The position numbers and the translations under genes are program-made. This document shows, piece by piece, positions 9,450 to 59,556 of a DNA stretch of 64,000 nt. The notes beneath the pieces are model-generated. The model saw nothing but the letters and a program-made list of their open reading frames with translations. It was not told the origin of the DNA and did no database searches. Positions within the stretch are counted from its first letter, which is position 1. Every line of letters starts with the position of its first letter. The stretch is from Zoogloea oleivorans (lineage in GTDB: Bacteria > Pseudomonadota > Gammaproteobacteria > Burkholderiales > Rhodocyclaceae). The DNA lies in assembly GCA_030157785.1 (NCBI GenBank), contig JAOAUC010000022.1:1-64000 (forward strand), read 5' to 3'.

Positions 9450-9547
9450 CGAGCTGCGCAATGCGCCTTTACAAATAAGGCCTAATGTTCCGCTCTCCCC
9501 ATGCCGTTTACCGGAAAGTTCATCGGCCCAAACGAAGGGGGAGTTTT

Positions 9548-9754
9548 ATGAGCATCGGTTCTGTCGGTGGCGCCTCAAGCGCCGCCTATACACAAACGGT
9601 ACAGCGTCAACCTGAAGCAGCTGAAGTCAAGAAGTCGGGTCCTGACGGCGATGGTGACAAGGACGATGGGGCGAGCAAGGTTCAGCCCGACCCTGCACCG
9701 AGCGTCAACGCCAGTGGTCAGGTCGTGGGACAGGTCATCAACACCACCGCTTGA
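9548..9754 (+). CDS. Small hydrophilic protein of unknown function
   Basis: The protein has 68 residues. The ATG is preceded by a strong Shine-Dalgarno sequence (GAAGGGGGAG, 9534-9543), and a rho-independent terminator follows the gene, so it looks like a complete monocistronic unit. The pattern is a Ser/Gly-rich start, an acidic-basic middle (EAAEVKKSGPDGDGDKDDG) and an end VNASGQVVGQVINTTA. I believe similar short proteins of the form 'E-EVKxxGPDxDGDxDD ... VNxxGQxVG' are common uncharacterised proteins in beta- and gammaproteobacteria, but I cannot name a function. No signal peptide or membrane segment is visible. Confidence 0.75.
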   Translation: MSIGSVGGASSAAYTQTVQRQPEAAEVKKSGPDGDGDKDDGASKVQPDPAPSVNASGQVVGQVINTTA

Positions 9755-9777
9755 CGCCGTCGCAATCCTCACACTCG

Positions 9778-9801
9778 AACCCGGCCACGCGCCGGGTTTT
9801 G
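9778..9801 (+). terminator. Rho-independent terminator after the small ORF
   Basis: The 8-bp stem AACCCGGC/GCCGGGTT (9778-9785/9791-9798) with a 5-nt loop is followed by a T-rich tail. Confidence 0.8.
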
Positions 9802-9880
9802 TTTTCCGGGCTCGGCTGGCATCATTCAGGGAACGCCACCTGGGCGAACTCGGCACAACCGAACACAGGAGAGTCACGCC

Positions 9881-10642
9881 ATGGGCTGGGAGCCGGATCG
9901 ATACCTGCAGTTTTCCGATGAACGTCTGCAGCCTGCGGCAGATCTGCTGAACCGGATTCCCCTCGCGCGGCCCGTTCATGTGGTGGACCTGGGCTGCGGG
10001 GCCGGCAACGTGACCCGCCTGCTCGCCCAGCGCTGGCCGGAAGCAGACATCACAGGCCTCGATAGTTCTCCCGAGATGCTCGAACGTGCGCGCCGCGTGC
10101 TGCCGTCGGCACGCTTCGAACTCGCCGGGGTGGAGCACTGGGAGCCTGACGATGCACTCGACCTGCTTTTCTCGAATGCAGCACTGCACTGGGTCGACGA
10201 TCACGAGGCGCTATTCCCGCGCTTGCTCGACAGCCTGTCGGCTGGTGGCGTTCTCGCGGTGCAGATGCCTGGCAATTTCGATGCCCCGTCCCATCGCCTG
10301 ATCCGCGAGCTCGCCGGCACCACCGCCTGGGCCGACAGGATTGGCCCCAGGCGCATGGGTGCGGTTCTGCCGATGGCTGACTACCAGCGCATTCTTGCGC
10401 CCCGCTGCACTCGCCTGCACCTGTGGGAGACGACCTACTGGCAGGCGATGAGCGGCCCGGCGCCGGTGCTCGACTGGCTGCAGGGCACGACCCTGATCCC
10501 CTACCTTGCGCCATTGGACGATGCTGCCCGGGCAGACTTCCTCACCGAACTCGGCAGTCGCCTCACGGAAGCCTATCCTCCCGACTCCAGCGGAACCACT
10601 CTTTTCCCCTTCCGGCGCATCTTCATACTCGCCCAGCGATGA
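9881..10642 (+). CDS. tam: Trans-aconitate 2-methyltransferase-like SAM methyltransferase
   Basis: Tam methylates trans-aconitate, a by-product that inhibits aconitase, using S-adenosylmethionine. The 253-residue protein has the Tam opening GWEPDRYLQFSDERLQPAAD, SAM motif I VVDLGCGAGNVTRLL and an acidic ribose-binding turn GLDSSPEMLERAR. It continues with LLFSNAALHWVDDH and VQMPGNF, all typical of Tam. Its stop overlaps the start of the broken sirtuin gene (ATGA), so the two probably formed an operon. The substrate assignment rests on family resemblance only. Confidence 0.88.
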   Translation: MGWEPDRYLQFSDERLQPAADLLNRIPLARPVHVVDLGCGAGNVTRLLAQRWPEADITGLDSSPEMLERARRVLPSARFELAGVEHWEPDDALDLLFSNAALHWVDDHEALFPRLLDSLSAGGVLAVQMPGNFDAPSHRLIRELAGTTAWADRIGPRRMGAVLPMADYQRILAPRCTRLHLWETTYWQAMSGPAPVLDWLQGTTLIPYLAPLDDAARADFLTELGSRLTEAYPPDSSGTTLFPFRRIFILAQR

Positions 10643-11208
10643 ACGATTCGCACGACCTGTTCGCTGAGGCCGCCCGATTCATAAGGTCTGCGGACGGCCT
10701 GCTCATCACCGCCGGCGCGGGCATGGGCGTGGATTCGGGATTGCCCGACTTTCGCGGCAATGCCGGCCTGTGGCGGGCCTATCCGGCCCTTGCCGGCGCC
10801 CGCATCGCCTTCGAGGATATCGCCTGCCCCGATGCCTTCCTGCGCACGCCCAAGCTCGCCTGGGGCTTCTACGGGCATCGGCTGAACCTGTATCGGCGGA
10901 CCATCCCACACGTGGGTTTCACGATCCTGCAGCAGATCGGTGCGCGCCTGCCGCAGAGCAGCTTCGTGTTCACCTCCAACGTGGATGGCCAGTTTCAGCG
11001 GGCCGGTTTCGCAGAGACACGAGTTTGTGAGGTGCACGGTTCCCTGCACCACCTCCAGTGCATGGGCGGTTGCGGCGACGCGATAAGGCCGGCCGATGAC
11101 TTCACTCCGGACGTGGATGACGCCAACTGCCAGTTGCGCTCACCGCTACCGCGCTGCCCCAGTTGCAATGATCTGCTGCGCCCCAACGTGTTGATGTTTG
11201 CACTATAA
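10639..11208 (+). pseudogene. 5' part of a sirtuin gene, split by the integrative element
   Basis: This segment encodes the first two thirds of a Sir2-family NAD-dependent deacylase: the NAD loop GAGMGVDSGLPDFRG, the motif FTSNVDGQF, the catalytic His in CEVHGSLHHL and a Cys pattern fitting a zinc site (CMGGC and CPSC). The native reading continues to RPNVLM and then runs into the element, gaining only F-A-L before a TAA. The missing third (MFGDWGWLPR onward) lies at 22021-22308, on the far side of the element, in the same frame. Neither half contains a complete NAD pocket, so the sirtuin is presumably inactive while the element is integrated. Confidence 0.93.
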
Positions 11209-11214
11209 AATCTC
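11191..11214 (+). other. attL: left attachment junction of the integrative element
   Basis: Here the host gene (ending CCCAACGTG) meets the octamer TTGATGTT (11191-11198), followed by element DNA TGCACTATAAAATCTC. The same octamer occurs at 22021. The element arm GATGTTTGC (11193-11201) is the exact reverse complement of GCAAACATC at 22012-22020. Confidence 0.9.
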
Positions 11215-11251
11215 TAAAAAAAGGGGACTGACAGCGCACTGACGAGCGCAT

Positions 11252-11446
11252 TTACGTATCAAGAGGCCAGTCGGTACACGATGAGATGTCGTAACTGCTA
11301 TCCGTACCATAAGGATTGCCTTCAACATCAATGTTCGTCCCTTCGATCAGCGGCAGACCGTTGGCAGGGTTCATTCCTGCATCCAACACACCGGACATCG
11401 CATCATCAGAGCCAGGCGTACCAAATAAAAAGTGCCAGAAGTTCAT
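11252..11446 (-). CDS. Small acidic protein next to attL
   Basis: The protein has 64 residues, beginning MNFWHFLFGTPGSDDAMSG and containing DAGMNPANGLPLIEGTNIDV and GNPYGTD. The ATG at 11446 has a good Shine-Dalgarno sequence (GAAGGAAC on the minus strand, 11458-11451). The motif 'NPANGLPxxxG..D..GNPYG' resembles a group of short uncharacterised proteobacterial proteins I have seen before, but I cannot name a family. Its place at the element edge opposite the integrase would suit an accessory or excision factor; that is speculation. The frame extends upstream, but the RBS favours the short form. Confidence 0.65.
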   Translation of the reverse strand: MNFWHFLFGTPGSDDAMSGVLDAGMNPANGLPLIEGTNIDVEGNPYGTDSSYDISSCTDWPLDT

Positions 11447-12256
11447 ATGGGTTCCTTCATATACGACCGGATTCCAAGATTCAGAGCCGACTTGCAGCCG
11501 TTCCGGTCGGTCTGCAAAGCGGGGCGGGACAGTTGTCCGTTTTTCCTGAGTTCGTCGCCGTGCTGAACTGACCTCGAAGAAAAGCCGACGGCAAGGGTTC
11601 GCCAGAACGCCAGGGGCACTCGCCCTTGCCGCCGGCTGACTCGAGGTTTGATGGCCGGAAAACGACAACTCGGGAAAAGACCGACACCCTCGCGTGGCAG
11701 ACTGACCCGCAAGCGACAGCGCGCAGTCACCGAACACGGTGACGGAGGGGAGCCGAGGCCTTCAGGACACGGGGCAGCGGCGTCCAGCCGCCAGCCCCCG
11801 GTGCAACCTCCCACCCCAGGGGGAGTCAGCCGGGCCGGGGGAGCCGCCGGCCGTAAGCGCAGTCCTAGCGCGGATCCGGCCCCAGCCGGATTAGGTCGGC
11901 GGGGGCAACGCCCCGCCACCCCAGGGTCACAGCGTAGCGGCGGGGCAACCTCGTCGGAGGCATCGCCCAACGCGTCCAGCGTTGTTTCGAAACAGCCGAC
12001 GTGACAATGCCGCCAACGGCGGGCTTGTGACGTCAGTGAAGAAAGCCGAGGGGGTTGCCCCGCCGCGAAGCGGTGGTGGCGCCGCCCTTTTTAGCCGAGT
12101 GGCGCCCTAGCGCCAAAGCCCTGCGGCCCGCGTCCAGCGGGGAAAGCGGGGCGGTCGGCTTGTGCTGTCGGATCGACAGCACGGTGTTCTCATGGTGCGG
12201 TTGCTATACAAGGCATCGACACAAGGATGGTCTTGTGTCTTAACTGAGATAGACAC
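11447..12256. other. GC-rich, hairpin-dense non-coding region of the element
   Basis: I find no convincing gene in these 810 bp. Instead there are many inverted repeats. The strongest is a 14-bp stem with one mismatch at 11584-11597/11623-11636 around a 25-nt loop. Others are ATCCGG/CCGGAT (11874/11886), GGCGGGG/CCCCGCC (11898/11911), CAACGC/GCGTTG (11968/11979), CCGCC/GGCGG (12010/12018), TGGCGC/GCGCCA (12100/12110) and a perfect 9-bp GTGCTGTCG/CGACAGCAC (12162/12174). Candidates are a structured RNA, a replication or transfer origin, or a regulatory leader for the gene at 12257. The sequence alone cannot decide. Confidence 0.55.
12205..12256 (+). promoter_or_regulatory. Operator-like palindrome upstream of the replication-relaxation gene
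   Basis: A -10-like TATACA at 12205-12210 is followed by a perfect 8-bp inverted repeat GACACAAG (12218-12225)/CTTGTGTC (12232-12239) with a 6-bp spacer. A further GACAC half-site (12252-12256) directly abuts the ATG at 12257. This layout suggests autorepression or a replication control site. Confidence 0.55.
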
Positions 12257-13024
12257 ATGACCGCACTTGATAAACGCCTGATTGGCGAACAGAACACGCT
12301 GTCCATTCTGCTTTATTTGCATCGTTTCGGCTGGCTGACGAGCCGGATGCTAGCTGCCCTGAATTGGCCCCAAGCTAAACAGGGCACAGCTATGGCCCGA
12401 CGTATAGTGAAGTCCCTCACTGACCAAAAGCTCGTCATCAAACGTCCGCTCCCGGAGGGGGGCGATTGCTATGTCCTCTCTGCCGCCGGCGCTCGCTGGC
12501 TCAATGAGCGAGAGGAAACGGTTGCCACAAGCGGGGCCACCCTGCCGCTCGGCAATCCCGTCCATCGGGCGTGTTCGAATTGGTTTCTGATTGGTCGCCT
12601 GCTGGCCGGGGATGCCATCTGGACCGAATACGAAATCCAAACGGGCCGCGCACCGTTTGTCACAGTGGCCGGCAAAACCCCCGATGGCCTCGTCCTAACG
12701 CCCCTTGGCCTAATCTGGGTCGAGGTCGAAAACGCCTGGAAAAACCGCACTGAGCGGAACAAAGTTGTTCATTTTTGCCAACGCCTCCTGCTGCCCGGTG
12801 AACAAATGGCCGAACTGGCACCTGATGCCCATTTGTTTCGCGCTGCAATCGTCAGTGTCACGATGGACGCGTTGCGCTCAATGACGCAATCTCTGACTGC
12901 GGCTCATGCCAGCGGTGACTTGAGCGATGCCCAGGCAACCGAAATCGAGCTGATCCATTTGCCGATCTCCCCGAGCCTTACAGCAGGCACTCAACAACAG
13001 TGCCTGCTGTACGACCTGCTCTAG
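12257..13024 (+). CDS. Replication-relaxation-like winged-helix protein
   Basis: The protein has 255 residues. The N-terminal ~75 residues look like a winged helix (LIGEQNTLSILLYLHRFGWL, SRMLAALNW, RRIVKSLTDQKLVIKR). After a linker comes TPDGLVLTPLGLIWVEVENAWK. This order, wHTH then a 'PDG ... vEvE ... K' segment, is typical of the plasmid replication-relaxation (Replic_Relax, PF13814) family found on plasmids and integrative elements. I infer a role in replication or copy control together with the HUH initiator at 14998. A palindromic operator-like region overlaps its start. The family assignment is moderate because I could not run a profile search. Confidence 0.6.
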   Translation: MTALDKRLIGEQNTLSILLYLHRFGWLTSRMLAALNWPQAKQGTAMARRIVKSLTDQKLVIKRPLPEGGDCYVLSAAGARWLNEREETVATSGATLPLGNPVHRACSNWFLIGRLLAGDAIWTEYEIQTGRAPFVTVAGKTPDGLVLTPLGLIWVEVENAWKNRTERNKVVHFCQRLLLPGEQMAELAPDAHLFRAAIVSVTMDALRSMTQSLTAAHASGDLSDAQATEIELIHLPISPSLTAGTQQQCLLYDLL

Positions 13025-13071
13025 CGACTGTTCTTCAGCCTCAGAAGACAATCACCTCCTCAGCCGCGGTC

Positions 13072-13833
13072 TTACACTGGGGCCGCTGGCGCGGGCGGCG
13101 TTCGCATATCGTAGACCGACACCTCGGTCACACAGTCACGCTCATCGATAGACCACCAGGCGCCGCGCCAGGGCGTTTCGCCGATGCGCGCTGCTTCATC
13201 GGAGGCCGCATTCAGCACTTCCTCGGAATACAACCGATGGTGCTTGCTCATCACCCCACCAGCGAGCGAGTAATCCCAATAGGCATCAGCCCAAAATCCG
13301 CCGATAACCAGCGAATTACGCGTCAGCACAATCACCGGCACCACAATCGCTGGTGGCTCGTCATGCGAAGCGTTGCTGGCACGGCAGTCGCTGACGACAT
13401 GCCGCAGCACCTCTTCATCAACAATGAATCGGTGCCGGCTACCCGCCTGTGAAACTGACCAGCCACAATACCCGAGTGCCCCCATCAAGCTGATGGTCGG
13501 TAGCGAAAAGGCGCTGGGCTCTTGCGCCGCCAATAGCTCCAAATCAGCCTCGAACTCGTCAGGCACACGCAGCAACAGCGCCGAGCCCCGCGCATCGCAC
13601 CGACTATCGCTGTTCAATTGGCGATTATTGACGAGACAGCCATACGTGAGAGCAGAACAGCCTTGACGTCTGTTCAGACTGACTAGCTTTGCCACCACGT
13701 TGTTCAGCTCGGGAAATACCCGGCGTGCTGTCGCCAAATCGAGTCGGCGGGCAGCAATGGCCGGGCGATACAGGAAGTCCGGCTGCAAGTCGTGCTGCAC
13801 GGCAGAAACGTCGGCGTGATTCGTATTCATCAT
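13072..13833 (-). CDS. Element-encoded protein of unknown function
   Basis: The protein has 253 residues, beginning MMNTNHADVSAVQHDLQPDF. A Shine-Dalgarno GAGGAGAG lies just upstream of the paired ATGs at 13833/13830, which supports expression. I recognise no domain. The middle is hydrophobic and aromatic (LPTISLMGALGYCGWSV, VVPVIVLTRNSLVIGGFWAD), but the segments are too short or too polar for clear transmembrane helices. The C-terminus is Pro/Ala-rich. It is convergent with the gene at 12257 and divergent from that at 14136. Being carried beside replication functions, it may be an element maintenance protein, but nothing in the sequence shows a function. Confidence 0.65.
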   Translation of the reverse strand: MMNTNHADVSAVQHDLQPDFLYRPAIAARRLDLATARRVFPELNNVVAKLVSLNRRQGCSALTYGCLVNNRQLNSDSRCDARGSALLLRVPDEFEADLELLAAQEPSAFSLPTISLMGALGYCGWSVSQAGSRHRFIVDEEVLRHVVSDCRASNASHDEPPAIVVPVIVLTRNSLVIGGFWADAYWDYSLAGGVMSKHHRLYSEEVLNAASDEAARIGETPWRGAWWSIDERDCVTEVSVYDMRTPPAPAAPV

Positions 13834-14135
13834 CTCTCCTCAAAGGGTTCCGTGGGAATGTCCACGCAACCGTATAGTCAATGAAAAGTTTTTTTTCGCG
13901 CTAGTCGATAAAAGATTTGAACAGCCCCGCCAAAAATCGACAGAACGTTGGTGGCTCGGCATCATGGTCTTACGAAATGCAGCGGCGATCCTCTTGTGGT
14001 TCTGTCGTTCGTTGAAGACCAGCAGAAAAAGCTCTTTCGGCGTTCTCGTTAGCTGAGAAGCCCTTCGCCGCCCCTGATCAGCCTTATTGGCGAACCGCTT
14101 TTTTTACTCACTAACGCATTGACGAAAACGTAACC
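13834..14135. other. Intergenic region between divergent unknown genes
   Basis: These 302 bp hold no gene I can support. A T-run (13888-13896) lies near the left end. The region must contain the promoters of the two divergent flanking genes, but I see no convincing -35/-10 pair. Confidence 0.4.
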
Positions 14136-14825
14136 ATGACGAACATCACCACAACTCAGGACTCGATTCAAACTCAGCTTATGGATGAACAGGAGCTTGT
14201 TGAAAGCATGCACTACGCTTGCGCGGAAAGCGCCTTGGGCATCGGAATTTCCATCGTTCTGCCCCACTTGATGACTCCATTTGTACGGAACCTTCACTCT
14301 CCAAACCTCGCGAATGATTTCCCTGCAAAGGGTAATCTGCCAATCATGCATCTCGCGGCATCTCAAGACGCAATCGCGCTCTTCAAGGAGGGTAGTTCAA
14401 CCAAAACCCGCTCAACCGGACTCCTGATTCATCAGCAACTGCCTTTGTTTTTGCATACCGTGTGGCTCGGCGAAAAGGCCTTCACTTTTGGCTTCGATGC
14501 AGGACAACCGTCCATTATTAAAGCGCTCCGACGCTGGGCTCGCCTTGGTTTTATTCCTGTATTACAGAGCGGACTTGGTTCGTTTGCCATTGGGCGGTTC
14601 CCCTTTCAAACTACGAAGGCAGTGGACAGTTTCTTGCGGTGGGCAGAAAAATCTCCGAGACCGTTTTCAATGGACAGGTGGAATCTGCACAAGTCGGGGT
14701 TGGAAATGGCACACGGGATTCCTGAATTGGCTATTGGCGCAATCGTTCAGCCCGCTTTTAGCCTTGATAACCTAGTTGAAATGACCCGGTGGGTAACATC
14801 CGAGAATGAGTTTGTTATGAATTAA
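14136..14825 (+). CDS. Element-encoded protein of unknown function
   Basis: The protein has 229 residues, starting MTNITTTQDSIQTQLMDEQE. I recognise no family. Secondary structure looks alpha/beta with aromatic residues (LPLFLHTVWLGEKAFTFGFD, LGFIPVLQSGLG, FLRWAEKSPRPFSMDRW), and there is no signal peptide or obvious transmembrane helix. No good Shine-Dalgarno sequence precedes the ATG. A strong hairpin follows 28 bp after the stop, making this an independent unit ahead of the HUH initiator. A regulatory or defensive cargo role is possible but unsupported. Confidence 0.6.
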   Translation: MTNITTTQDSIQTQLMDEQELVESMHYACAESALGIGISIVLPHLMTPFVRNLHSPNLANDFPAKGNLPIMHLAASQDAIALFKEGSSTKTRSTGLLIHQQLPLFLHTVWLGEKAFTFGFDAGQPSIIKALRRWARLGFIPVLQSGLGSFAIGRFPFQTTKAVDSFLRWAEKSPRPFSMDRWNLHKSGLEMAHGIPELAIGAIVQPAFSLDNLVEMTRWVTSENEFVMN

Positions 14826-14853
14826 GCCCTCCTTTCGTTGGTCAGCCCCTTTG

Positions 14854-14890
14854 ACGCCTTGCCGTGAGATCGCCGGCAAGGCGTGTTTCA
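14854..14890 (+). terminator. Hairpin terminator after the unknown gene
   Basis: A perfect 11-bp stem ACGCCTTGCCG/CGGCAAGGCGT (14854-14864/14874-14884) with a 9-nt loop is followed by the T-rich GTTTCATTCT. Confidence 0.75.
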
Positions 14891-14909
14891 TTCTATCCCC
14901 GAGCGCGCA

Positions 14910-14997
14910 GGCGCTTTACGGGAGAAAAATTCGGCCAAAAATCGGCAATTAAAGCGCCATTACCTACACATCGCATCCCCTACTTTTTGGATGCGAT
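14910..14997 (+). promoter_or_regulatory. Paired inverted repeats upstream of the HUH initiator gene
   Basis: GGCGCTTT (14910-14917) and AAAGCGCC (14951-14958) enclose 33 bp containing the repeated TCGGC-caaaaa-TCGGC. A second, perfect 9-bp repeat ATCGCATCC (14970-14978)/GGATGCGAT (14989-14997) ends exactly at the ATG of the gpA-like gene. It would hide the only Shine-Dalgarno-like GGA. It may be a translational control hairpin, a rolling-circle nick-site hairpin, or both. Confidence 0.55.
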
Positions 14998-16950
14998 ATG
15001 TCTTCGTCCCCTTCTTCTCTTCGTCTGAATTCCCGTGCCGGTGTCACGGCACTGCTCGATGACGCCTGCCAGCGGCAAGAACGCCACCTCCTGGCCCTGG
15101 AGTTTTCGCCGCTGTTCCCCGAGGACTGCCCCTGGGCGTCTCTCGCCGATGTGCCCGCCGAGCGGCACAAACAGACCCAGCCTCAATTGACCCGCGTCAG
15201 TCAGGCGCTGGCTGACTATCGGGCCAGCCTGACCGCCACCGCCGGCGAACTGGCGGCATGGCTGGATGCGAGTGACCAGGACGTCCGCGAGGTGGCGCTG
15301 CGCTATGCCCAACTTCGCCTGCCAGGACAGCAGAAGTTGGCATGGGCTGAGCGGCGCTTGAGGACCAAGATTCCCGGTAAAACCGTCGAGGCGCAGTGGG
15401 CGCGTCTCAACGATGCCCGCTTCTGGCGGCGGGCCATCCGGGTGAGGCTGCTGCGCGAGCGCGAGCATTTCTATCTGCGTCTAAACCTCGTCGGTCGGGG
15501 GCGCGAAACGTATGTCTCTGACCAGCAACTCAACACGCGCGCGCGCCAGCTGCGGCAACAGACGCAATGGATGCAAGACACAGTGCTGGTGCCCCGCTAC
15601 CTCGAAGTGGGCGAAGGCACGGAGGGGCCATTGACCCTGGCGCAGGTTGCGTCATCTCCCATAACCCGCTTCGCGAAACTCTACACATTCATCAAGGCGA
15701 TGGACAAAATCGCCCAAGCCGAAGGGCTGGACTCCGCGATTTTGACGTTTACGCTTGAACCAGAATGGCACCCTAATCCGAGCCACGGAACAAACTCATG
15801 GAATGGCGCCTCTCCCCGCGAGGGGCATCGGCTGATGGCTCAGCGCTGGCAGTCCATCCTTCGCGATCTGGATCGCGCCGGAGTCGGGTTATCGGGATTG
15901 CGAGTCGTTGAACCCCATAAAGACGCTTGTGCTCACTGGCATCTCTGGCTGCTCTATCGGCCTGAGGTTGAATCCCGCTTGCTGACGACGGTCATGCAGT
16001 ATTTCCCCGTTAAACTCAGAATCCGCGCCCCAAGCGCTAAGGGGCAGATAGAGCATACGGACGACAGGATATATGCCACCTGTGCCGACTTTGTGGCCGG
16101 AACGGGCCGTGCTCCGACCCACGCAAAGGAAGGCGCGCAGGTCGAGCTGTCACGTATCGACCGCTCGATTTCCTCCGGTGCCAGCTACGCGATGAAGTAC
16201 TTGCTCAAGACCGTGGACGCCGGCGACAAGCTAAGTCAGGAGGTGGACCTGTTCGGCAACGTCATAGAGACAGAACCGCAGCAACGCCGGTCAGAACATC
16301 AAGCGACGGCAAAACGGGTCGATGCGTATCGCAGTCTGTGGGGCATCAACGCAGGCCAGCTGTTCGGTGTCGCCAAATGCTTGTCCGCCTGGGATGAACT
16401 GCGCCGGCTGACGCAACCGCCGGCCCATGCCGCGCTGCGCGAACTATGGGTCTTGGCCCGAGGCAGCGATAAACCGGGGCGGATTCCGAAGAATGCTGGC
16501 CAACGTGGCAACCCACGGGCTTTTCTCGAAGCGTTGGGGGGACTGGCGGCGTGCCGCCAAGGGAAGGCGAAAAAGCCGAAAGTCTCCATTGAGCGGCTGA
16601 CTGTGCCCGCGACCAATGGCTATGGCGAAGCCATCCGCCGCGCCAAGGGTCTTTCTCTGGTCCGCCGTGAGCAGGTTCGCGTCAAAAAGGGTGGGGTCGC
16701 CAATGACACGGGAGAAATCTTCCAGCGCTCTGGCCAACGCTCCGTCAAGACGGTCCTGGCGTCGGTGGTCACGCGCCTGACTGAATGGGTGCTCTCCCCC
16801 AAGGCGAGCTCCTCCTTTGCCATGAAGGCGGCGCAAGACCGAGCGTATCAACGGGATGCGGCACAGACGCCAACGGAACTCGGCCGGCGAGCCCGGCAAC
16901 ATTTCTGGTCAACACTGTGGTCCGCTTGGGAAGACCCGAGCTCCGAGTAA
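14998..16950 (+). CDS. Replication initiation endonuclease, P2 gpA-type HUH family
   Basis: The protein has 650 residues. The central block ARLNDARFWRRAIRVRLLRE followed by REHFYLRLNLVGRG is typical of the phage P2 replication protein A (Phage_GPA) family. It has the HUH metal-binding motif HWH near residues 313-315 (CAHWHLWLLYRP) and a paired-tyrosine helix SYAMKYLLK with Y397 and Y401, the YxxxY arrangement of gpA. These enzymes nick one strand at an origin, stay bound through a tyrosine and start rolling-circle replication. Inverted repeats lie directly upstream. Here it probably replicates the excised circle. No phage structural genes accompany it. Confidence 0.88.
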   Translation: MSSSPSSLRLNSRAGVTALLDDACQRQERHLLALEFSPLFPEDCPWASLADVPAERHKQTQPQLTRVSQALADYRASLTATAGELAAWLDASDQDVREVALRYAQLRLPGQQKLAWAERRLRTKIPGKTVEAQWARLNDARFWRRAIRVRLLREREHFYLRLNLVGRGRETYVSDQQLNTRARQLRQQTQWMQDTVLVPRYLEVGEGTEGPLTLAQVASSPITRFAKLYTFIKAMDKIAQAEGLDSAILTFTLEPEWHPNPSHGTNSWNGASPREGHRLMAQRWQSILRDLDRAGVGLSGLRVVEPHKDACAHWHLWLLYRPEVESRLLTTVMQYFPVKLRIRAPSAKGQIEHTDDRIYATCADFVAGTGRAPTHAKEGAQVELSRIDRSISSGASYAMKYLLKTVDAGDKLSQEVDLFGNVIETEPQQRRSEHQATAKRVDAYRSLWGINAGQLFGVAKCLSAWDELRRLTQPPAHAALRELWVLARGSDKPGRIPKNAGQRGNPRAFLEALGGLAACRQGKAKKPKVSIERLTVPATNGYGEAIRRAKGLSLVRREQVRVKKGGVANDTGEIFQRSGQRSVKTVLASVVTRLTEWVLSPKASSSFAMKAAQDRAYQRDAAQTPTELGRRARQHFWSTLWSAWEDPSSE

Positions 16951-17168
16951 CGATACCCGCTCACGGCCTGACATGCCCACCTTGAAGCGTCCATTATCCG
17001 CCCGGCGGAGGGTTAAGCACGCCGACAATCTCAAAATTGGCCATTTCCGTCGAAAAAAGCGGGAAAAAATCGGGATCACGGGCCAAGCTACGGCCAAAAC
17101 CGGGACTTTTGCGTTGATTGTGTGGGGAATACTGGCCAGCCTGTATTGCCCAGCGCGGAAAGTTTTAC

Positions 17169-17585
17169 TTAGTTATCCAAGAAGCCTCTGAGTCTCTTTG
17201 ATAGCTTTTCTTGCTCTTTAAGCTCGCACTCCCAAACCACGAGTATCTCCCAACCAAGGTTGGAAAGAGCTGTTTGGTTGGCAAAGTCTCTCTCCTTGTT
17301 TCGACTTATTTTTGATATCCAATAATCTTGATTTGAATGTGGCTTGCGAGATCCTTTCTTACATTCATGTCCGTGCCAAAAGCATCCGTTAACTATGATT
17401 GCTTTGCGGCGACCGATATAAGCAATATCTGGTCTTCCAGGCAATTCCTGTCTATGCAAACGATAACCAGGGAACCCTAATGATCGAAGGATCATTCGCA
17501 CAAGCATCTCGGGTTTCGTGTTCTCACCCTTTATGCGGCGCATATTTTCACTACGGCTTATCGTCATAAGCTTTACCTCTGACAT
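17169..17585 (-). CDS. vsr: Very-short-patch repair endonuclease (Vsr)
   Basis: Vsr nicks next to T:G mismatches created by deamination of 5-methylcytosine. The 138-residue protein has the family landmarks SENMRRIKGENTKPEMLVR, FPGYRLHRQELPGRPDIAYI (with the metal-binding Asp), VNGCFWHGHECKKG and LGWEILVVWECEL. It is divergent from the cytosine methyltransferase 183 bp away, the usual partnership that limits methylation-induced mutation. An internal ATG at 17567 is an alternative start. Base composition is noticeably AT-richer than the host, consistent with acquisition. Confidence 0.93.
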   Translation of the reverse strand: MSEVKLMTISRSENMRRIKGENTKPEMLVRMILRSLGFPGYRLHRQELPGRPDIAYIGRRKAIIVNGCFWHGHECKKGSRKPHSNQDYWISKISRNKERDFANQTALSNLGWEILVVWECELKEQEKLSKRLRGFLDN

Positions 17586-17768
17586 GTAGACGACAGGCTA
17601 CACGCCTCTAACCCGCTCTCGGAACACAGAGATACTGGACTGAGACAGAACCTCACACCAAAACTGTATATTTGTACAGAAAACTCTCTACATTCGACCA
17701 TTTTTGTGCTATGATACGGGTTGATACGGCTCGCCCGTTGCGCATTCCAACAAAAGATTGATACTCAT

Positions 17769-19013
17769 ATGAACTTGAACCAAGCCGCACAGGCCATCGG
17801 AGTGTCTGCAGTGACGCTCAAACGCTGGCTCATTAGCGGAAAAGTGAAAGACGTTGACCGCGACAGGAATAACTGGCGGGTTTTTACCCATGCTGACATT
17901 GAGCGAATCAAGCAGTATGTCTCTAAGGATTCCGACAACTCGGCACCTAGCACTAGTTCTGTACCGCTAGATCGTTCGATCTACTCCGCAGCATCATTCT
18001 TCACCGGGATCGGTGGGTTTGACATCGGCTTTGAATCAGCAGGCTTCTCAATCTCGATGCAGTGTGAGATTGAGCCTTTCTGTCAATCTCTTCTAAGAAA
18101 GCACTGGCCTAGTGTCCCCCTTCACTCTGACATTACGAAATTAAAAAATGACGACATCCCAAAATCCGACGTTTGGATCGGAGGCTTCCCGTGTCAAGAC
18201 CTCTCTCTTGCTCGAATGGGTAAAAGAGACGGACTTAGAGGGAGCAAGTCCGGACTGTTTTATGAGTTTGCTAGATTGGTTGGAGAAGGCAAGCCCAGAG
18301 TTATTCTTCTCGAAAACGTTGCGGGCTTACTCAGCTCCCACGGAGGAAAAGATTTTGGGGTCGTGCTCTCAACGCTGGCCGAGCTCGGGTATTCTGTCGG
18401 ATGGCGTACTTTTAACAGCAAACACTTCGGAGTTCCCCAATCACGGCAAAGGGTCTACGTTGTCGGATGTCGTGGAGACGGGCGAGGTCCAGGAGAAATA
18501 CTTTTTGAGCCCGAATGCAGCAAAGGGCATCATCCGAAGGGCGGATCGCATGGGAAGGAATCTGCGGCCTCATTTCAGGATGTCATTGGAGATCCTAGCG
18601 GCGAAGGCCCCGTAATTCAGGCTCTTGCTTATTGCCTCTACGCGACCTCTGCGCGGCATACGGGGACAGATTGGAGCCGCAATTATGTTTGCTATCCCAA
18701 GATTGGCAAAGTTCGTCGTCTGATTCCTTCTGAGTGCGAAGGAGTGATGGCCTTTCCAAAGGGCTGGACGATTCCGGCGCAAACAACTCTGAGTGCTGAT
18801 GACTTGGACTCAGCTAGGTATCATGCCCTTGGAAATGCCGTCACGCCCCCCGTTGCGGAGTGGCTTGCTCTGCGGATCAGGCAATATCTGGAGTCTCGTG
18901 ACTTTCCTGAAGCAGATCAGAGGTTCAATGCTTCGTTATATACCTTGAGGAACGAGGGGTTGGGCCAGTTGGAGCTGTCTTTCGGCAATAAAGAGGTTGA
19001 AACCACGCCTTGA
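17769..19013 (+). CDS. DNA (cytosine-5-)methyltransferase with N-terminal MerR-like HTH
   Basis: The protein has 414 residues. The C5-methyltransferase motifs are in order: FFTGIGGFDIGFESAGF (I), GGFPCQDLSLA (IV, catalytic Cys in PCQ), LLENVAG (VI), FGVPQSRQRVYVVG (VIII), RRLIPSECEGVMAFPKGW (IX) and ALGNAVTPPVAEWLALR (X). Residues 1-55 form an extra helix-turn-helix of MerR/excisionase type (LNQAAQAIGVSAVTLKRWL, then WRVFTHADIERIKQY), which could bind its own promoter. I chose ATG 17769 because it begins this HTH; the frame is open upstream. The target sequence cannot be read from the protein. Its 3' end overlaps the convergent HNH gene by 97 bp. Confidence 0.93.
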   Translation: MNLNQAAQAIGVSAVTLKRWLISGKVKDVDRDRNNWRVFTHADIERIKQYVSKDSDNSAPSTSSVPLDRSIYSAASFFTGIGGFDIGFESAGFSISMQCEIEPFCQSLLRKHWPSVPLHSDITKLKNDDIPKSDVWIGGFPCQDLSLARMGKRDGLRGSKSGLFYEFARLVGEGKPRVILLENVAGLLSSHGGKDFGVVLSTLAELGYSVGWRTFNSKHFGVPQSRQRVYVVGCRGDGRGPGEILFEPECSKGHHPKGGSHGKESAASFQDVIGDPSGEGPVIQALAYCLYATSARHTGTDWSRNYVCYPKIGKVRRLIPSECEGVMAFPKGWTIPAQTTLSADDLDSARYHALGNAVTPPVAEWLALRIRQYLESRDFPEADQRFNASLYTLRNEGLGQLELSFGNKEVETTP

Positions 19014-20095
19014 ATATCTTTGAGTCCGTTCAGTTTGAGAAGACCGGCGGACTCAGCAGCGAGGGCGGCCTCCGACAGGGCAATCTCATAGTTTGATGTC
19101 GAAGTACCATAGCTTAGCCGCAAGATGCCCGCATCAAATGCCCAGTGGCAGAGCTTGCTTAAGCAAAGTCCGTTGCTGACGGCGTTCAAGTTATACTCTG
19201 CCCACGGAAGAATATGGGCAGCATCTACGCCGGAACTTCCAGTCGCAGGAGTTTTGGGAAGCCGCATTCCAGAGAACAGACAGGTATGGTTGTATGCCTG
19301 ACGAACTTCGTTACTGAACCTAGCTCCCGCTGCACCACGCATTGCGACCTGCTGCCAAACCTTGATTCTGTTTCTTGCGGCCTCCTTCAGTTCTTCAAGA
19401 TTCTCTTCCCCAAGGGCCATCGCCTCTTCAATGTCAGTGGAGTGAACCCCAAGCCACATCAGCTCATCAAGATTGGGTAAGTTTAGAGCTTTGGTTATGT
19501 GACGAAGAGGGTCATCAGATTCTATATTAGATAGTCGTATTGATTCGGCTGCACCAATCACAGCTTTAACATCGCGAAGGTTAAAAGCATTCCTGTGTCG
19601 AAGGATCGCGCTGGCAAGAGCAGAACTATGCTTAGAAGCAGCCTCCCAACAAGCCATAACAATGCGCAAGCGTTCAATTACATCAAGTCGAACAGAGTCG
19701 AACGTTGAGTTAGAAAGAACCATCTGCGTTGGCGAAACAACTATCTCAGTGCTTGATAACTCCACCACATCAAACGGAATGGACGTCACGGAGAAGTTGT
19801 CTTTGTATATTTGAAGCTTGCCTCCCGGTGTTGCACCGATTTCTCTCTTAGGCTTAGGCAGCAAAAGAATTGCAGCTAAGATTAAATAGACATGGCAATC
19901 GGAGTGAGGATCATGAAGTCTGATACGAGGCTTGCCTTGGGTGTGGCGGACAAAGTTATTGGAGGGAAATCTGCACCCTGGAAGCAGTTCTAAAGCAATC
20001 TCACGGTCGAATACGTCATGAACACGTATAGCCTCATGGCTCCCTGCCACTTCGTACTCACCTCTGCCTCCACTTGTTCTCAAAGCGATTCGCAT
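18917..20095 (-). CDS. HNH nuclease, probable restriction partner of the C5 methyltransferase
   Basis: The protein has 392 residues. The C-terminal third carries an HNH_2-type nuclease: YNHTCLFSGMRLPK, VDAAHILPWAEYN and NGLCLSKLCHWAFDAGIL (His, Asn, His). The N-terminal ~250 residues (start MRIALRTSGGRGEYEVAGSH) show no domain I know and may bind DNA or hold the specificity. The gene is convergent and overlapping with the methyltransferase and next to Vsr, so a type II restriction role is the simplest inference. A modification-dependent nuclease cannot be excluded. Confidence 0.8.
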   Translation of the reverse strand: MRIALRTSGGRGEYEVAGSHEAIRVHDVFDREIALELLPGCRFPSNNFVRHTQGKPRIRLHDPHSDCHVYLILAAILLLPKPKREIGATPGGKLQIYKDNFSVTSIPFDVVELSSTEIVVSPTQMVLSNSTFDSVRLDVIERLRIVMACWEAASKHSSALASAILRHRNAFNLRDVKAVIGAAESIRLSNIESDDPLRHITKALNLPNLDELMWLGVHSTDIEEAMALGEENLEELKEAARNRIKVWQQVAMRGAAGARFSNEVRQAYNHTCLFSGMRLPKTPATGSSGVDAAHILPWAEYNLNAVSNGLCLSKLCHWAFDAGILRLSYGTSTSNYEIALSEAALAAESAGLLKLNGLKDIQGVVSTSLLPKDSSNWPNPSFLKVYNEALNL

Positions 20096-20381
20096 CCATC
20101 ACCACCGTATCAGTAAGATAGTTGTTCGCTGGTAATGGTACGACAACTGAGGTCACGGTCGATATTTTTTTGGGTTATGTAGCGCGCCAATTCACATCTT
20201 TGACATATGCCCCTACGGTCGACACTTTAGAAATGGGGTGCAATCGATCTCGGTTTCCTACGGCGTCGAGAACTGCTACCTCTGGACAGCTCATATTTTA
20301 CTGTGAGCTTAACTTCGGGAACTCCCGATACCTCGGGAAGTACCGAAGAACGCATTTCCGAAACCACTACAGGCACCACGA

Positions 20382-21977
20382 CTAGATTTCGCCCCCCCCT
20401 TCTTCAAAAACGCCCCTGAGAATCTGAGTGCCCGGGAAGTCGAGCGGCGTAAGCAAAAGCTTGAGATAACTATCCGCATCGAAATTTCCGCGGTGATCGG
20501 TTAATGGAAGAACCAGGGGGGCGCTAAGTCCATTAACTTGAGCAACTACGGCTACTTTGGGAAACAATAGCAATTTCGATACAAGCTGCTGCATACGCAA
20601 TCCGAACTCAGCTCGCAATGCTTCGTCTGTACTTCCTTTCTTAAACGCGCAGAGGATTGAGGTGGCATCCATGGTCACAGCCTGAGGTAGTGAGGCAATC
20701 CCTGCACGCAATGCAGCAACTTCAGTCTTCTTCGAGCGGTAATGGTCTTGAAGCTCGCGGAGGCGAGGAATAAAGGTGGTCGCCACATCCTCCCCTACCT
20801 CAATCGCTTCTTTGATATTCGCGATACGTCTCTCGGTCTCGATTAAGTCAGGTTCGACAACCTTTATTCTTGCGGTCATCCTGTCACGTTTTGCGCGGCT
20901 ATCAAAATGCTCTGACCATGATTCGATCAACTTGGGCAGCAATGCTCCAAGCAATAGACGCTGAGAAATTGCACCTGATTTGCAAATCCCCCTCACTCGC
21001 CCGCGGCACGAGTAATTGGAGTACTCCCCCGGATGAAATGCATACCCTGAACCGCAATTTCCGCAAAACAAAAGGCCACGGAACGGATTGGCAGCTCCTA
21101 TGGCGTGCTTCCCCTTTGCAAAGCTTCTGCTATCCATCGACGCATTGGCTCTAAGGTATAGCTCTTCATCAATGATCGTAGGATACCAATCCGTTACGAC
21201 ATCACCGGTCGGGATTCGCTTACGATTTTGTAGAAGGTGAAACTCATGCTCACCGAGCACCGCCCGAGACCGAATCAACCGACGCACCATTGATAGGTGC
21301 CATCCGGAGCCTTTGTTTCGCCTCTTTGACGGGACGGGCCAGCCTCCGGCATTTGCTCTTGCGGCTGCGCTTGTAGTTCCATGGCCTTCCGCAACAAATT
21401 CAAATACACGCCTCACCGACTCAACCATCTCAGGGATAGGCACAAACTGGCCATCTTTTTTTTCCAGCCATCCTGGCCAGGTGAACTGGGAACGGTTTCG
21501 AGAAGTCCTTGCAGCGCTGCGTGCGTTGCCCACCATCGTGGACTTGCGCTCGCTCTCTTCGCGAGCCCTACTTAGTTCAAGCGTCGCAGGTAATATAACC
21601 CTGAGGTCAGAAATGTTCTCTTCCGTATAGAGCTGGCCATCCTTCAGGTTGACGAGCGAGATCCCCTTAAACACCAAACCGAGCAACGTAAATAGACTGA
21701 TACCGACCTTTTCTCGGGAGAATCGGTCGAGGTCTTCAACGATGACTACCGAACCTCGGGACAGCAACCCATTCATGACCTCCAGTTGCAGATCGTCAAA
21801 TACTCCGAGGTTACGCCCGTAATAGGCCGACACGCCTTCATCAACAATTTCGCGCGTAATTGCGAGCCCGTGCTCAGCGCAGTATCGCTGTGCGGCTTCC
21901 CGTTGCCGGCGCAGACTGTCCCCGTCTGCTTGCCCAGCAGACGAGAAACGTGCATAAAGGATGACGTCTTTGACCAT
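20382..21977 (-). CDS. Large serine recombinase (integrase of the element)
   Basis: The protein has 531 residues. The N-terminal resolvase domain begins DVILYARFSSAGQADGDSLR, with the catalytic Ser at about residue 12, then EIVDEGVSAYYGR and VVIVEDLDRFSRE. The Recombinase domain follows (about 160-290), then a zinc ribbon (CGNCGSGYAFHPGE, YSCRGRVRGICKSG). The C-terminus has a coiled-coil stretch (about 370-430), which in this class governs integration versus excision. It ends 45 bp from attR, as expected for a unidirectional site-specific integrase. A TATAAT on its strand (22009 to 22004) lies inside the attachment site. Confidence 0.95.
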   Translation of the reverse strand: MVKDVILYARFSSAGQADGDSLRRQREAAQRYCAEHGLAITREIVDEGVSAYYGRNLGVFDDLQLEVMNGLLSRGSVVIVEDLDRFSREKVGISLFTLLGLVFKGISLVNLKDGQLYTEENISDLRVILPATLELSRAREESERKSTMVGNARSAARTSRNRSQFTWPGWLEKKDGQFVPIPEMVESVRRVFEFVAEGHGTTSAAARANAGGWPVPSKRRNKGSGWHLSMVRRLIRSRAVLGEHEFHLLQNRKRIPTGDVVTDWYPTIIDEELYLRANASMDSRSFAKGKHAIGAANPFRGLLFCGNCGSGYAFHPGEYSNYSCRGRVRGICKSGAISQRLLLGALLPKLIESWSEHFDSRAKRDRMTARIKVVEPDLIETERRIANIKEAIEVGEDVATTFIPRLRELQDHYRSKKTEVAALRAGIASLPQAVTMDATSILCAFKKGSTDEALRAEFGLRMQQLVSKLLLFPKVAVVAQVNGLSAPLVLPLTDHRGNFDADSYLKLLLTPLDFPGTQILRGVFEEGGGEI

Positions 21978-22000
21978 GTAAGCCCCTACTTAAAGCGATA

Positions 22001-22034
22001 GAGATTATATGGCAAACATCTTGATGTTCGGCGA
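22001..22034 (+). other. attR: right attachment junction, with recombinase promoter element
   Basis: The element arm GAGATTATATGGCAAACATC ends at 22020, followed by the shared TTGATGTT (22021-22028) and host sirtuin DNA CGGCGACTGG. On the minus strand the arm contains a perfect TATAAT 27 bp upstream of the recombinase start. The matching -35 would fall in host DNA when integrated and in element DNA when circular. Confidence 0.88.
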
Positions 22035-22308
22035 CTGGGGCTGGCTACCCCGACGTACGGCGGTCCAGCGTCAGCGCCTGGAAAGCTGGCTGCAATCCAC
22101 CGCACGCCCGGTCGTCATCGAAATCGGCGCCGGCACACACGTCCCCACCGTACGCTGGTTCAGCGAGACGCTCGGCGAACCACTCATCCGTATCAACCCC
22201 ACCGAGCCCGACATACCCGGACGCGGCGTCAGCCTGCCCATCGGCGGCCTTGCAGCGCTGACGGGGATCCACGACGCCCTTTCCAGAACCAGTTTTTTCG
22301 CTGACTGA
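22021..22308 (+). pseudogene. 3' part of the split sirtuin gene
   Basis: This segment encodes the last ~95 residues of the sirtuin: LMFGDWGWLPRRTAVQRQRL, VVIEIGAGTHVPTVRWFSE (NAD-binding region) and LIRINPTEPDIPG. It continues exactly in frame from the fragment ending at 11198. The element arm supplies an in-frame ATG at 22009 (M-A-N-I-L-M-F), so a 99-residue stub might be translated, but it would lack the catalytic His and the NAD loop. The rejoined gene would encode about 279 residues, a normal sirtuin size. Confidence 0.92.
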
Positions 22309-22317
22309 GCGCCCGCT

Positions 22318-22333
22318 TGTTTCACGTGAAACA
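22318..22333. promoter_or_regulatory. parS: parS centromere site (perfect consensus)
   Basis: TGTTTCACGTGAAACA is the exact 16-bp ParB-binding palindrome used for chromosome segregation in most bacteria. It lies between the sirtuin 3' fragment and the TSUP gene, about 17 kb from dnaA and immediately outside the integrative element. Confidence 0.93.
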
Positions 22334-22339
22334 TACCTG

Positions 22340-23104
22340 ATGGATTTACCTCTTCTGTTTCTTGCCGTGGGTGCGTTCTCCGCCGGCGTGGTGGACGCCG
22401 TCGTTGGTGGCGGCGGACTCATCCAGATTCCGATGTTGTTCTCCACCTATCCACAGGCATTGCCCGCCACCCTGTTCGGCACCAACAAGCTGGCCAGCGT
22501 ATTCGGTACAAGCAGTGCAGCGATCCAGTATGGCCGCCGGCTGGCAATACCCTGGCGAATTGCAGGGCCAGCAGCCATCGCCGCCGCACTGGGTTCATGG
22601 CTGGGAGCCCGGGCGGTGGTCCTGTTTCCGCCTGCAGCCCTGCGCCCGCTCATCCTGACGCTACTGATTCTCGTCGCCATCTACACCTTCCTGCGCAAGG
22701 ACTTCGGCGTCATCCAGCGACCATTCACCGACCGCTCCCGCGAGGGGCAACTGGCCGTCCTGATCGGTATCGTCATCGGCTTTTACGATGGTTTCTTCGG
22801 CCCCGGCACCGGCAGCTTCCTGATCTTTTTGTTCATCCGCTTTCTCGGCATGGACTTCCTGCATGCGTCCGTGTCGGCCAAGATCGTCAATGTGAGCACC
22901 AACATTGCCGCCATCGCAGTCTTCGTCTCCCACGGCGAGATACTCTGGAAGGTGGCCGCCATCATGGCATGCTGCAACCTGATGGGCTCCCGGGTCGGCA
23001 CCACTCTCGCCTTACGTCACGGTGCCGTTTTCATCCGCAAGGCCTTTCTCGTCGTCGTAGTCGTGCTGATCCTGCGCTTCTCCGCCGACACCTTCTTGCG
23101 TTGA
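22340..23104 (+). CDS. TSUP (TauE/SafE) family membrane permease
   Basis: This is a 254-residue integral membrane protein with about eight predicted helices. It has the typical duplicated TSUP motifs: GAFSAGVVDAVVGGGGLIQI near the N-terminus and GFYDGFFGPGTGSFLIFLF in the second half. Family members export sulfite, sulfoacetate or related anions; the substrate cannot be told here. It is flanked by two parS sites. Its stop comes just before the second site. Confidence 0.9.
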   Translation: MDLPLLFLAVGAFSAGVVDAVVGGGGLIQIPMLFSTYPQALPATLFGTNKLASVFGTSSAAIQYGRRLAIPWRIAGPAAIAAALGSWLGARAVVLFPPAALRPLILTLLILVAIYTFLRKDFGVIQRPFTDRSREGQLAVLIGIVIGFYDGFFGPGTGSFLIFLFIRFLGMDFLHASVSAKIVNVSTNIAAIAVFVSHGEILWKVAAIMACCNLMGSRVGTTLALRHGAVFIRKAFLVVVVVLILRFSADTFLR

Positions 23105-23110
23105 AGAGAG

Positions 23111-23126
23111 TGTTCCACGTGAAACA
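23111..23126. promoter_or_regulatory. parS: Second parS site (one mismatch)
   Basis: TGTTCCACGTGAAACA differs from the parS consensus at one position (T to C), a variant known to be bound by ParB in several species. It overlaps the start region of the spermidine-synthase-like gene and lies 793 bp from the perfect site. Confidence 0.85.
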
Positions 23127-23985: not shown

Positions 23986-23990
23986 AGCCC

Positions 23991-25313: not shown

Positions 25314-25890
25314 GCGCCGCCGCTTTCTGCAGCAGGCTGCCGGCCTCGCTGCGGGAACCTGGCTCGCTCTCGGTGCCGCGCCGGCCCATGCCGCCGAGGC
25401 GGAGATCCGCGCGGCCGCCATCATCCAGAGCGACGACCAGTACATCCTCAACGTGGACATCGCCGCCGAGCTCACCCCGCTGCTGGCCGATGTGGTGGCC
25501 CGCGGCGTGTCGCTCTACTTCGTCACCGAATTCGAACTGAGCGCCCCCCGCTGGTACTGGCTTGACGAAGAAGTCGTCACCAAAACGCTGACCTACCGTC
25601 TCTCCTACCAGTCCCTCACACGCCAGTACCGCCTCACCACCGGCGCCCTGCACCAGAACTTCGGCAGCGCCGAAGAAGCCATGCGCACCATGCTGCGCAT
25701 CCGCAACTGGGGCATTGCCGACCGCAACGCCCTGCGCGTCGGGCGCAGCTATAACGCCGCCCTGCGCTTCCGGCTGGACGTGGGCGAGCTGCCCAAACCA
25801 CTGCAGGTCAGCGCCTTCGGACGCAAGGACTGGAACCTCAGCAGCGACTGGTACCGCTGGACTTTCCTCGCGGCCCGGGAATCCAAATGA
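25273..25890 (+). CDS. DUF4390 exported protein
   Basis: The protein has 205 residues from ATG 25273, which lies inside the 3' end of rsmB. The N-terminus is an export signal with a twin-arginine look: ERRRFLQQAAGLAAGTWLAL and a cleavage-like APAHA. The mature part is the beta-rich DUF4390 domain (RYWLDE-like RWYWLDEEVV, LTYRLSYQSLTRQYRLTTGA, FGRKDWNLSSDWYRWTF). In betaproteobacteria this gene regularly sits between rsmB and an NtrY-type kinase, overlapping both, as here. Its function is unknown; it may sense or signal to the kinase. Confidence 0.85.
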   Translation: MTDFSTPCSRKLPERRRFLQQAAGLAAGTWLALGAAPAHAAEAEIRAAAIIQSDDQYILNVDIAAELTPLLADVVARGVSLYFVTEFELSAPRWYWLDEEVVTKTLTYRLSYQSLTRQYRLTTGALHQNFGSAEEAMRTMLRIRNWGIADRNALRVGRSYNAALRFRLDVGELPKPLQVSAFGRKDWNLSSDWYRWTFLAARESK

Positions 25891-59549: not shown

Positions 59550-59556
59550 TCTTGAC

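Follow-up and report, generated by a model that had tools for sequence, protein, structure and literature searches.

Serine integrases often take conserved genes as their attB sites (PMC10083194), and according to the same survey the magnesium chelatase gene is the target of 12.4% of the predicted site-specific integrases and competence genes are enriched among integrase targets. The known switches are described as elements which were repurposed after the loss of transfer (PMC8987985). Excision by serine integrases requires a directionality factor, and the two such factors named in PMC3783163 have no sequence resemblance to each other. The element analysed here lies in a window of 64,000 nucleotides (the whole stretch of DNA under study), and like the large-serine-recombinase elements of PMC10083194 it has a three-domain integrase beside the att site at one end and a conserved coding motif as attB; a TT core is also reported there for one multi-target integrase. 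The target differs, however, as it is a sirtuin gene: the main text of PMC10083194 contains none of the words 'sirtuin', 'Sir2' and 'deacetylase', and no report of such a target was found in the literature searched, in agreement with the earlier suggestion that it is an uncommon one. Exact restoration of the gene by excision would be shared with the split-gene elements described in PMC8987985 (Listeria comK prophage, sporulation and nitrogen-fixation elements), but in our case nothing indicated descent with the host, a signal, a directionality factor or a need for the gene.

We consider the locus to be an ordinary 10.8-kb serine-integrase element which entered the sirtuin gene of a Zoogloea-like bacterium through attP x attB recombination (probability about 0.88). 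Its exact boundaries, the empty site in relatives, the symmetry of attP and the gene content were observed directly. The recombination would insert the element at the Leu185-Met186 codons, the circular form might replicate via the rolling-circle initiator, and the element appears to carry restriction-modification-type cargo. The integrase is probably active, and the element presumably able to spread. The coordinates are collected in Table 1.

Table 1. Features of the split sirtuin gene and of the inserted element, in window coordinates.
Feature	Position	Strand	Basis or remark
Sirtuin N-terminal part, 189 aa	10639..11208	+	Pfam SIR2 1.1e-18 and in-frame join
Integrative element, 10,830 bp	11191..22020	.	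bounded by octamer and empty-site alignment
attL core octamer TTGATGTT	11191..11198	+	likely crossover dinucleotide TT at 11191-11192
G+C-rich left end, imperfect inverted repeats	11199..12256	.	candidate replication origin region
Protein without family match, 255 aa	12257..13024	+	ORF; Pfam, NCBIfam, PHROG, PADLOC negative
Protein without family match, 253 aa	13072..13833	-	ORF; Pfam, NCBIfam, PHROG, PADLOC negative
Protein without family match, 229 aa	14136..14825	+	ORF; Pfam, NCBIfam, PHROG, PADLOC negative
Rolling-circle-type replication initiator (Rep, GPA family), 650 aa	14998..16950	+	PF05840 9.4e-29
Vsr mismatch endonuclease, 138 aa	17169..17585	-	PF03852 3.7e-23, TIGR00632 2.2e-38, both above cut-off
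C5-cytosine DNA methyltransferase	17721..19013	+	PF00145 5.5e-58; PADLOC MTase_II 1.1e-71
HNH endonuclease, possible restriction enzyme, 392 aa	18917..20095	-	PF13391 1.1e-09; PADLOC HNH 1.4e-10
Large serine integrase, 531 aa	20382..21977	-	Resolvase, Recombinase and Zn_ribbon_recom, all above gathering scores
TATAAT	22004..22009	-	possible -10 of the integrase promoter, inside attP-derived arm
Sirtuin C-terminal part	22009..22308	+	99-aa ORF MANILMFGDWGW...; ATG at 22009 from element
attR core octamer TTGATGTT	22021..22028	+	octamer match

The preliminary description had proposed that a sirtuin frame is split with one octamer at both junctions, and that its halves rebuild an uninterrupted gene of about 279 codons. 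Both proposals held: the two copies of the octamer stand 10,830 bp apart and form the maximal direct repeat there (8 bp; the preceding base is G versus C, the next T versus C), and joining the halves gives 840 nt, that is 279 codons and a stop, with 0 internal stops. The in-frame join at the octamer also bears out the prediction that excision, removing 10,830 bp, would restore the sirtuin precisely. The site lies, as had been claimed, inside a conserved sirtuin motif, with R181, P182, N183, L185, M186, F187 and D189 invariant in 15 aligned sequences, the joined window gene included. The N-terminal part, the ATG of which (10639-10641) overlaps the stop of an upstream methyltransferase gene (9881-10642), covers positions 1-148 of the 180 in the SIR2 profile and ends with RPNVLMF-AL-stop, where the last residues are supplied by the element. 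The C-terminal part alone had no Pfam or NCBIfam match at E 0.001; an alignment with intact homologues places it in their C-terminal third, and the ATG supplied by the element puts MANILMF ahead of it. The joined protein matched best the sirtuin-5 entries in a search of solved structures (6.7e-26, residues 4-202). The HGS histidine and cysteines 141, 145, 173 and 176 are retained in the N-terminal fragment, which is without the invariant E218-x-GAG and INP residues; the insertion thus probably inactivates the sirtuin, and it may also have a polar effect on the sirtuin operon.

The short shared core of 8 bp is accompanied by a rebuilt attP which is near-palindromic around TT (18 of 25 pairs symmetric), unlike attB (11 of 25), attL (8) and attR (9), and among the 63,940 centres of the window 1 reaches the symmetry score of attP. 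Because of this symmetry TT is the likely crossover dinucleotide. No second copy of intact attB or attP was found in the assembly with up to 3 mismatches, which neither supports nor excludes activity. In 100 of the 112 relative loci with a readable codon (117 loci, 5 without such a codon dropped) the inferred crossover bases are CT and not TT, from which it is predicted that a silent change in this codon would prevent integration; the identical sites L017/L122, L007/L116, L009/L118 and L005/L117 probably belong to the same genomes, so that the 112 are not independent species.

The empty site was recognized in the nearest relative (G018, locus L076), where window positions 9467-11198 correspond to 5037-6786 and positions 22021-27000 to 6779-11756, the flanks being contiguous with an overlap of 8 nt which is exactly the octamer. 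Eight further loci (L115-L122; seven titled Zoogloea, one 'Proteobacteria bacterium') were contiguous at the site as well, where wobble in the alignment made the overlaps vary between 7 and 16 nt; in L120 window positions 22281-23215 remained unaligned. Neither two separate full genes nor an empty site joining elsewhere was seen in these 9 loci, hence the comparison with relatives suggested by the preliminary description came out in favour of insertion.

A sirtuin search of 297 family genomes, including that of the window (E<=1e-25), listed 107 matches, and in 104 of these the identity was at least 49%. When the two halves in the window are set aside, 99 of 102 matches (one of them a host paralogue) span the att position, and near the 3 which do not, neither an integrase nor a displaced C-terminal part was found. 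Additionally, in genome_contigs the match ran across the site in 80 of 80 kept loci, although one of the two search patterns itself spans the site and split genes are under-sampled in this count. The search for serine recombinases beside truncated sirtuins in other genomes, also suggested earlier, gave none at G040, G022, G221, G082, G296 and G218, where a displaced C-terminal part was likewise not seen, and the remaining hits near truncated sirtuins were weak (E 0.001 or more). The sirtuin match stops at residue 80-84 in G040 and G022 and the remainder diverges, G296 has a frameshift-like break at residue 206, and the stretches in G221 and G218 stop at contig ends. A 47-residue match to sirtuin residues 148-194 (E 0.001) lies about 8 kb from the G082 copy.

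The G+C content of the element is lower (0.47-0.54) in 14-15 kb and 17-22 kb, 7 inverted repeat pairs occur in 11150-12300, and Rfam gave no match at the gathering threshold in 9000-24000. The integrase combines resolvase, recombinase and zinc-ribbon domains in one long protein and matches the phrog_95 integrase family (2e-61), with one marginal solved-structure match (3guv, 9.4e-4). Rep matches phrog_91, 'nicking at origin of replication' (7.5e-50), and its residues 157-552 are 26% identical to P12 of phage PM2. The Rep family is thus common to the element and to GPA-type replicons and phages (P2-like phages, PM2), but in contrast to these phages no structural or packaging genes were recognised: PHROG searches of 9 proteins met integrase, invertase, transposase, methyltransferase, endonuclease, origin-nicking and unknown-function families, and no capsid, terminase, tail or packaging genes. 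The methyltransferase, which has a MerR-type helix-turn-helix at its N terminus (PF13411 7.9e-06, residues read from 17763), had primase, MerR-regulator and unknown-function families among its PHROG matches. A methyltransferase and a nuclease lie inside the exact att boundaries, which points to restriction-modification-type cargo with the HNH protein as the putative partner of the methyltransferase; the HNH protein had no solved-structure relative at E 0.1. Pfam and NCBIfam searches (E 0.001) of the 8 element proteins, 3 of which are without family match, detected neither relaxase nor secretion genes; Rep could act as a relaxase.

Relatives of the integrase were sought with one genome per species and at most 4 candidates scored per genome; no close relative of the element turned up, so that its description depends on a single genome, 87% complete. 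The best long matches in 296 other family genomes were 31-36% identical, and one match of 54% covered 52 residues only. The 253-aa protein had weak matches in 2 of the 296 genomes, and the 255-aa protein has a 29% homologue in the G222 element (tblastn to L078, 1.9e-11). No integrase relatives were found in genome_contigs and viral_contigs; viral_contigs likewise gave no match to Rep and two of the three family-less proteins, nor to the attP and attL patterns. The element DNA had no match among plasmids and phages in 'near' mode, and the integrase matched 30 plasmid records, all below 60% identity (about 24-30% among the 20 matches listed).

Distant integrase relatives adjoin broken conserved genes, with Pfam families RadC, Mg_chelatase, DUF4131 (twice), Exo_endo_phos and DUF455; the second half of the gene was examined for G221 only. 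Like the element of the window, that of G221 has a serine integrase (29-31%), a methyltransferase, Vsr and a near-palindromic attP, and it splits a host gene in frame. It differs in that one of its proteins hits DUF5906/Pox_D5 and that no counterpart of the window's Rep was matched. Its reconstructed attP is symmetric around TA (18 of 20) with a shared core, picked by eye, of GACTA only, and the ExoIII-like gene is restored in frame. This 9.4-kb element of the same family, which splits an ExoIII-like gene, carries a complete ExoIII-like gene itself. Methyltransferase and Vsr are also carried by the G222 element.

The preliminary description went further and proposed that the element controls the sirtuin as a reversible switch, conditional excision restoring the enzyme as in the sporulation, nitrogen-fixation and comK elements. 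The reading frame is indeed restored exactly on joining and the integrase gene is uninterrupted. Furthermore, both sirtuin halves are free of frameshifts, with values against G018 (dN 0.125 and dS 0.877 for the N half, dN 0.119 and dS 1.063 for the C half) which resemble those between intact relatives and would fit continued use. A recent insertion fits the low dN equally well, and these values cannot separate it from retained use. The switch is nevertheless very unlikely: the element was found in one genome, with no close relative in the other species searched (one genome per species), the host holds a second sirtuin as a 61% identical paralogue, and related integrases sit at other broken genes. 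Family searches of the element genes recognised no directionality factor, which excision would need (PMC3783163); this says little, because the two factors named there are unlike in sequence. Since conserved genes commonly serve as attB, a restorable gene is to be expected from integration and is no evidence of regulation. The restored sirtuin is most likely a by-product of site choice, and not a host regulatory circuit.

The undecayed coding sequence might also be explained by a two-piece sirtuin, in which the fragment ending NVLMFAL and the one starting MANILMF are both translated and assembled; both keep the strand N-[VI]-L-M-F, as attP resembles attB there. That resemblance is explained by integrase recognition, no clear ribosome-binding site was seen by eye before 22009, and the C fragment in G221 also has an ATG as its first codon, located at the att site, so that this feature recurs without need of function; we regard such an enzyme as extremely unlikely. 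A decaying remnant, with a redundant gene killed and the element no longer mobile, would agree with the persisting paralogue and with transfer genes not being recognised. It is unlikely too, as the reading frames of the integrase, Rep, methyltransferase, Vsr and HNH protein run without a break, both ends carry the exact octamer and neither sirtuin half has decayed. Integration of an ordinary serine-integrase element accounts best for the locus. Regulation of the deacylase by reversible excision, with the host sensing some cue through an unrecognised directionality factor of the element and with the synonymous Leu185 codon (TTN or CTN) deciding which Zoogloea-like lineages can be entered, would be a very improbable extension.

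With this locus a protein deacylase gene joins the conserved genes that serve serine integrases as attachment sites, and a fully defined attP/attB pair is obtained. If the codon prediction holds, synonymous sites may limit where the element can go; and regulated excision, if it occurred, would place protein deacylation beside sporulation, nitrogen fixation and competence among the processes gated by mobile elements.

The element carrying the large serine integrase interrupts the sirtuin gene where the preliminary description had placed the break: the octamer TTGATGTT stands at both junctions, the frame runs through RPNVLMF to a stop inside element sequence, and fusing the two parts at this octamer restores a reading frame of 279 codons and a stop. 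The N part was recognized as Pfam SIR2 (1.1e-18, profile positions 1-148 of 180).

The empty site expected in relatives without the element was found. Among the 80 genomes searched (the window's own included), the nearest relative, G018, has the closest sirtuin match, 81% identical and with an unbroken frame. In the DNA alignment window 9467-11198 corresponds to G018 5037-6786 and window 22021-27000 to G018 6779-11756, thus the flanks adjoin, with the octamer as their 8-base overlap. A sirtuin match at E<=0.001 was present in 46 of these 80 genomes (the window's own counted), many of them having a distant sirtuin alone (about 27-38% identity). The flanks are likewise contiguous at eight further loci (L115-L122, overlaps of 7 to 16 bases); at L120 no alignment was obtained for window 22281-23215. 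A scan of 297 genomes of the family (the window's own counted) at E<=1e-25 listed 107 sirtuin matches in 99 genomes, 104 of them at >=49% identity, including the two window halves. The attachment position is crossed by 99 of the other 102, one of the 102 being the host paralogue on contig C18. The three that stop short belong to G082, G221 and G040, in whose sirtuin surroundings (18, 7.5 and 20 kb read) there was neither an integrase nor a displaced C part. In the genome_contigs scan the best 80 of at least 588 related loci all match across the site, a result biased to intact genes because, of the two search patterns used, one extends over it. Two frames, in G040 and G022, match the sirtuin N-terminus at 70-72% identity over their first ~75 residues and then diverge; they are possibly chimeric or replaced sirtuins.

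Rejoining the element ends gives the attP ...GCAAACATC TT GATGTTTGC..., symmetric at 18 of 25 positions, a score reached at a single one of 63,940 window centres (a 22-pair palindrome at 59580); by the same measure attB scores 11, attL 8 and attR 9. Crossover therefore probably occurs at the TT dinucleotide, and the exchange would then fall on positions 1 and 2 of the Leu185 codon. Serine integrases are known to require matching central dinucleotides; at the 112 readable of 117 sirtuin loci this codon is TTG in 10, TTA in 2, CTG in 78, CTC in 20, CTA in 1 and CTT in 1. The attP of the related 9.4-kb G221 element is symmetric at 18 of 20 positions around TA, its five-base core having been picked by eye beforehand. 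Since a TATAAT noticed by eye upstream of the integrase start lies within an attP arm, the integrase promoter may straddle the attachment site. The palindrome at 59580, near-perfect over 52 bases (22 of 25 pairs around TA), is the strongest of such size in the window, and is possibly an operator or terminator.

Coordinates and annotation of the features discussed
Feature	Location	Remarks
Sirtuin frame, N part	window 10639-11208	ends at stop
Octamer copies	window 11191-11198, 22021-22028
Remaining sirtuin gene	window 22021-22308
Integrase start	window 21977
TATAAT	window 22009-22004	minus strand
Palindrome	window 59555-59606
Large serine integrase		in element
GPA-type replication initiator		in element; PF05840 9.4e-29; phrog_91; 26% to PM2 P12
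Cytosine methyltransferase		in element; MerR-type helix-turn-helix
Vsr		in element
HNH nuclease		in element
Three proteins, 255, 253, 229 aa		in element; no family match
G+C-rich left end		in element; imperfect inverted repeats
Full-length host sirtuin paralogue	C18:5179-5949	Pfam SIR2 6e-20
Locus of G221 element (L079)	G221:C79:8000-22000
Complete ExoIII-like frame, G221 element	L079 1668-2453	261 aa
Further stretches, G221 element and split gene	L079 1552-1671, 9426-11027, 11061-11732
Prophage-like region, G016	L082 2131-17169	same-genus genome
Diverging sirtuin-like frame, G040	L074 4663-4887
Diverging sirtuin-like frame, G022	L075 5198-5416

Family searches of the element proteins recognized no relaxase and nothing for secretion, capsid formation or packaging; for the HNH enzyme we infer a restriction role from its neighbouring genes. 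Cytosine methyltransferase and Vsr also accompany the related integrases in G221 and G222, which suggests that serine-integrase elements with such a cargo form a wider group, and the G222 locus (L078) encodes a homologue of the 255-aa protein. The host gene split in frame by the G221 element is ExoIII-like (restored reading ...GWRLDYQLATPAL...). This element also carries, at its end opposite the integrase and a few bases from the att core, a full ExoIII-like frame that shares 65% identity with the broken gene over 223 residues; the element thus seems to supply a substitute for what it disrupts. In the window element the joined sirtuin matches just the two halves at the ends.

In the genomes searched the integrase itself has distant kin. 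Of the family's 297 genomes (the window's own counted), 28 contain a match to it at E<=0.001, the best long matches being 31-36% identical and one of 54% spanning 52 residues, with at most four candidates scored per genome. At least 11 same-genus genomes are among those listed, and of these just one, G016, gave a match (25%); at class level 2 of 274 genomes pass E<=1e-20, one being the window's own. In a tree of 16 integrases no other shares its branch, which is 1.22 changes per column long. The G016 genome has a prophage-like region encoding a serine recombinase together with a GPA-type Rep; inspection by eye also showed a tape-measure-like protein and an integrase of the tyrosine type there.

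At seven loci the gene lying 5' of the integrase was read: by Pfam it is Exo_endo_phos (G221), RadC (G321), Mg_chelatase (G575), DUF4131 with a sub-threshold Competence match (G306), DUF4131 (G174) and DUF455 (G198), and in G222 a ComM-like N-terminus by eye with no Pfam match. We take the Pfam-identified genes to include ExoIII/xthA, ComM and ComEC. At two of eleven additional loci the integrase match at the cut-off was absent. Such assorted broken genes beside related integrases are a known pattern, since passages of a survey report that 12.4% of predicted site-specific integrases target a magnesium chelatase gene and that competence genes are enriched (PMC10083194). Sirtuin is not mentioned in the main text of that survey, in agreement with the earlier view that it is an uncommonly described serine-integrase target.

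It had also been proposed that the element is a reversible excision switch of the sirtuin. Passages of PMC8987985 describe elements that turned into excisable switches after transfer loss, in comK and in genes for sporulation, nitrogen fixation and DNA repair; the likeness of the window element to these is confined to anatomy. It was found in a single genome, various unrelated genes are broken by remote relatives of its integrase, and no directionality factor could be recognized in it; we consider this proposal very improbable.

The sirtuin start overlaps the stop of the upstream methyltransferase gene and a TauE-family gene (PF01925) starts 31 nt past the sirtuin stop, therefore the element probably cuts an operon. 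The N fragment retains H133 and cysteines 141, 145, 173 and 176 and lacks E218, G220-A221-G222 and I242-N243-P244; the lost residues are all invariant in 15 aligned sequences and serve NAD binding and catalysis. The host has the full-length paralogue, 61% identical, and a second, distant sirtuin (C78, 32%). Compared to G018 the N half has dN 0.125 and dS 0.877, and the C half dN 0.119 and dS 1.063. Because these values resemble those between intact relatives, the split gene has not decayed, which fits a recent insertion or continued use.
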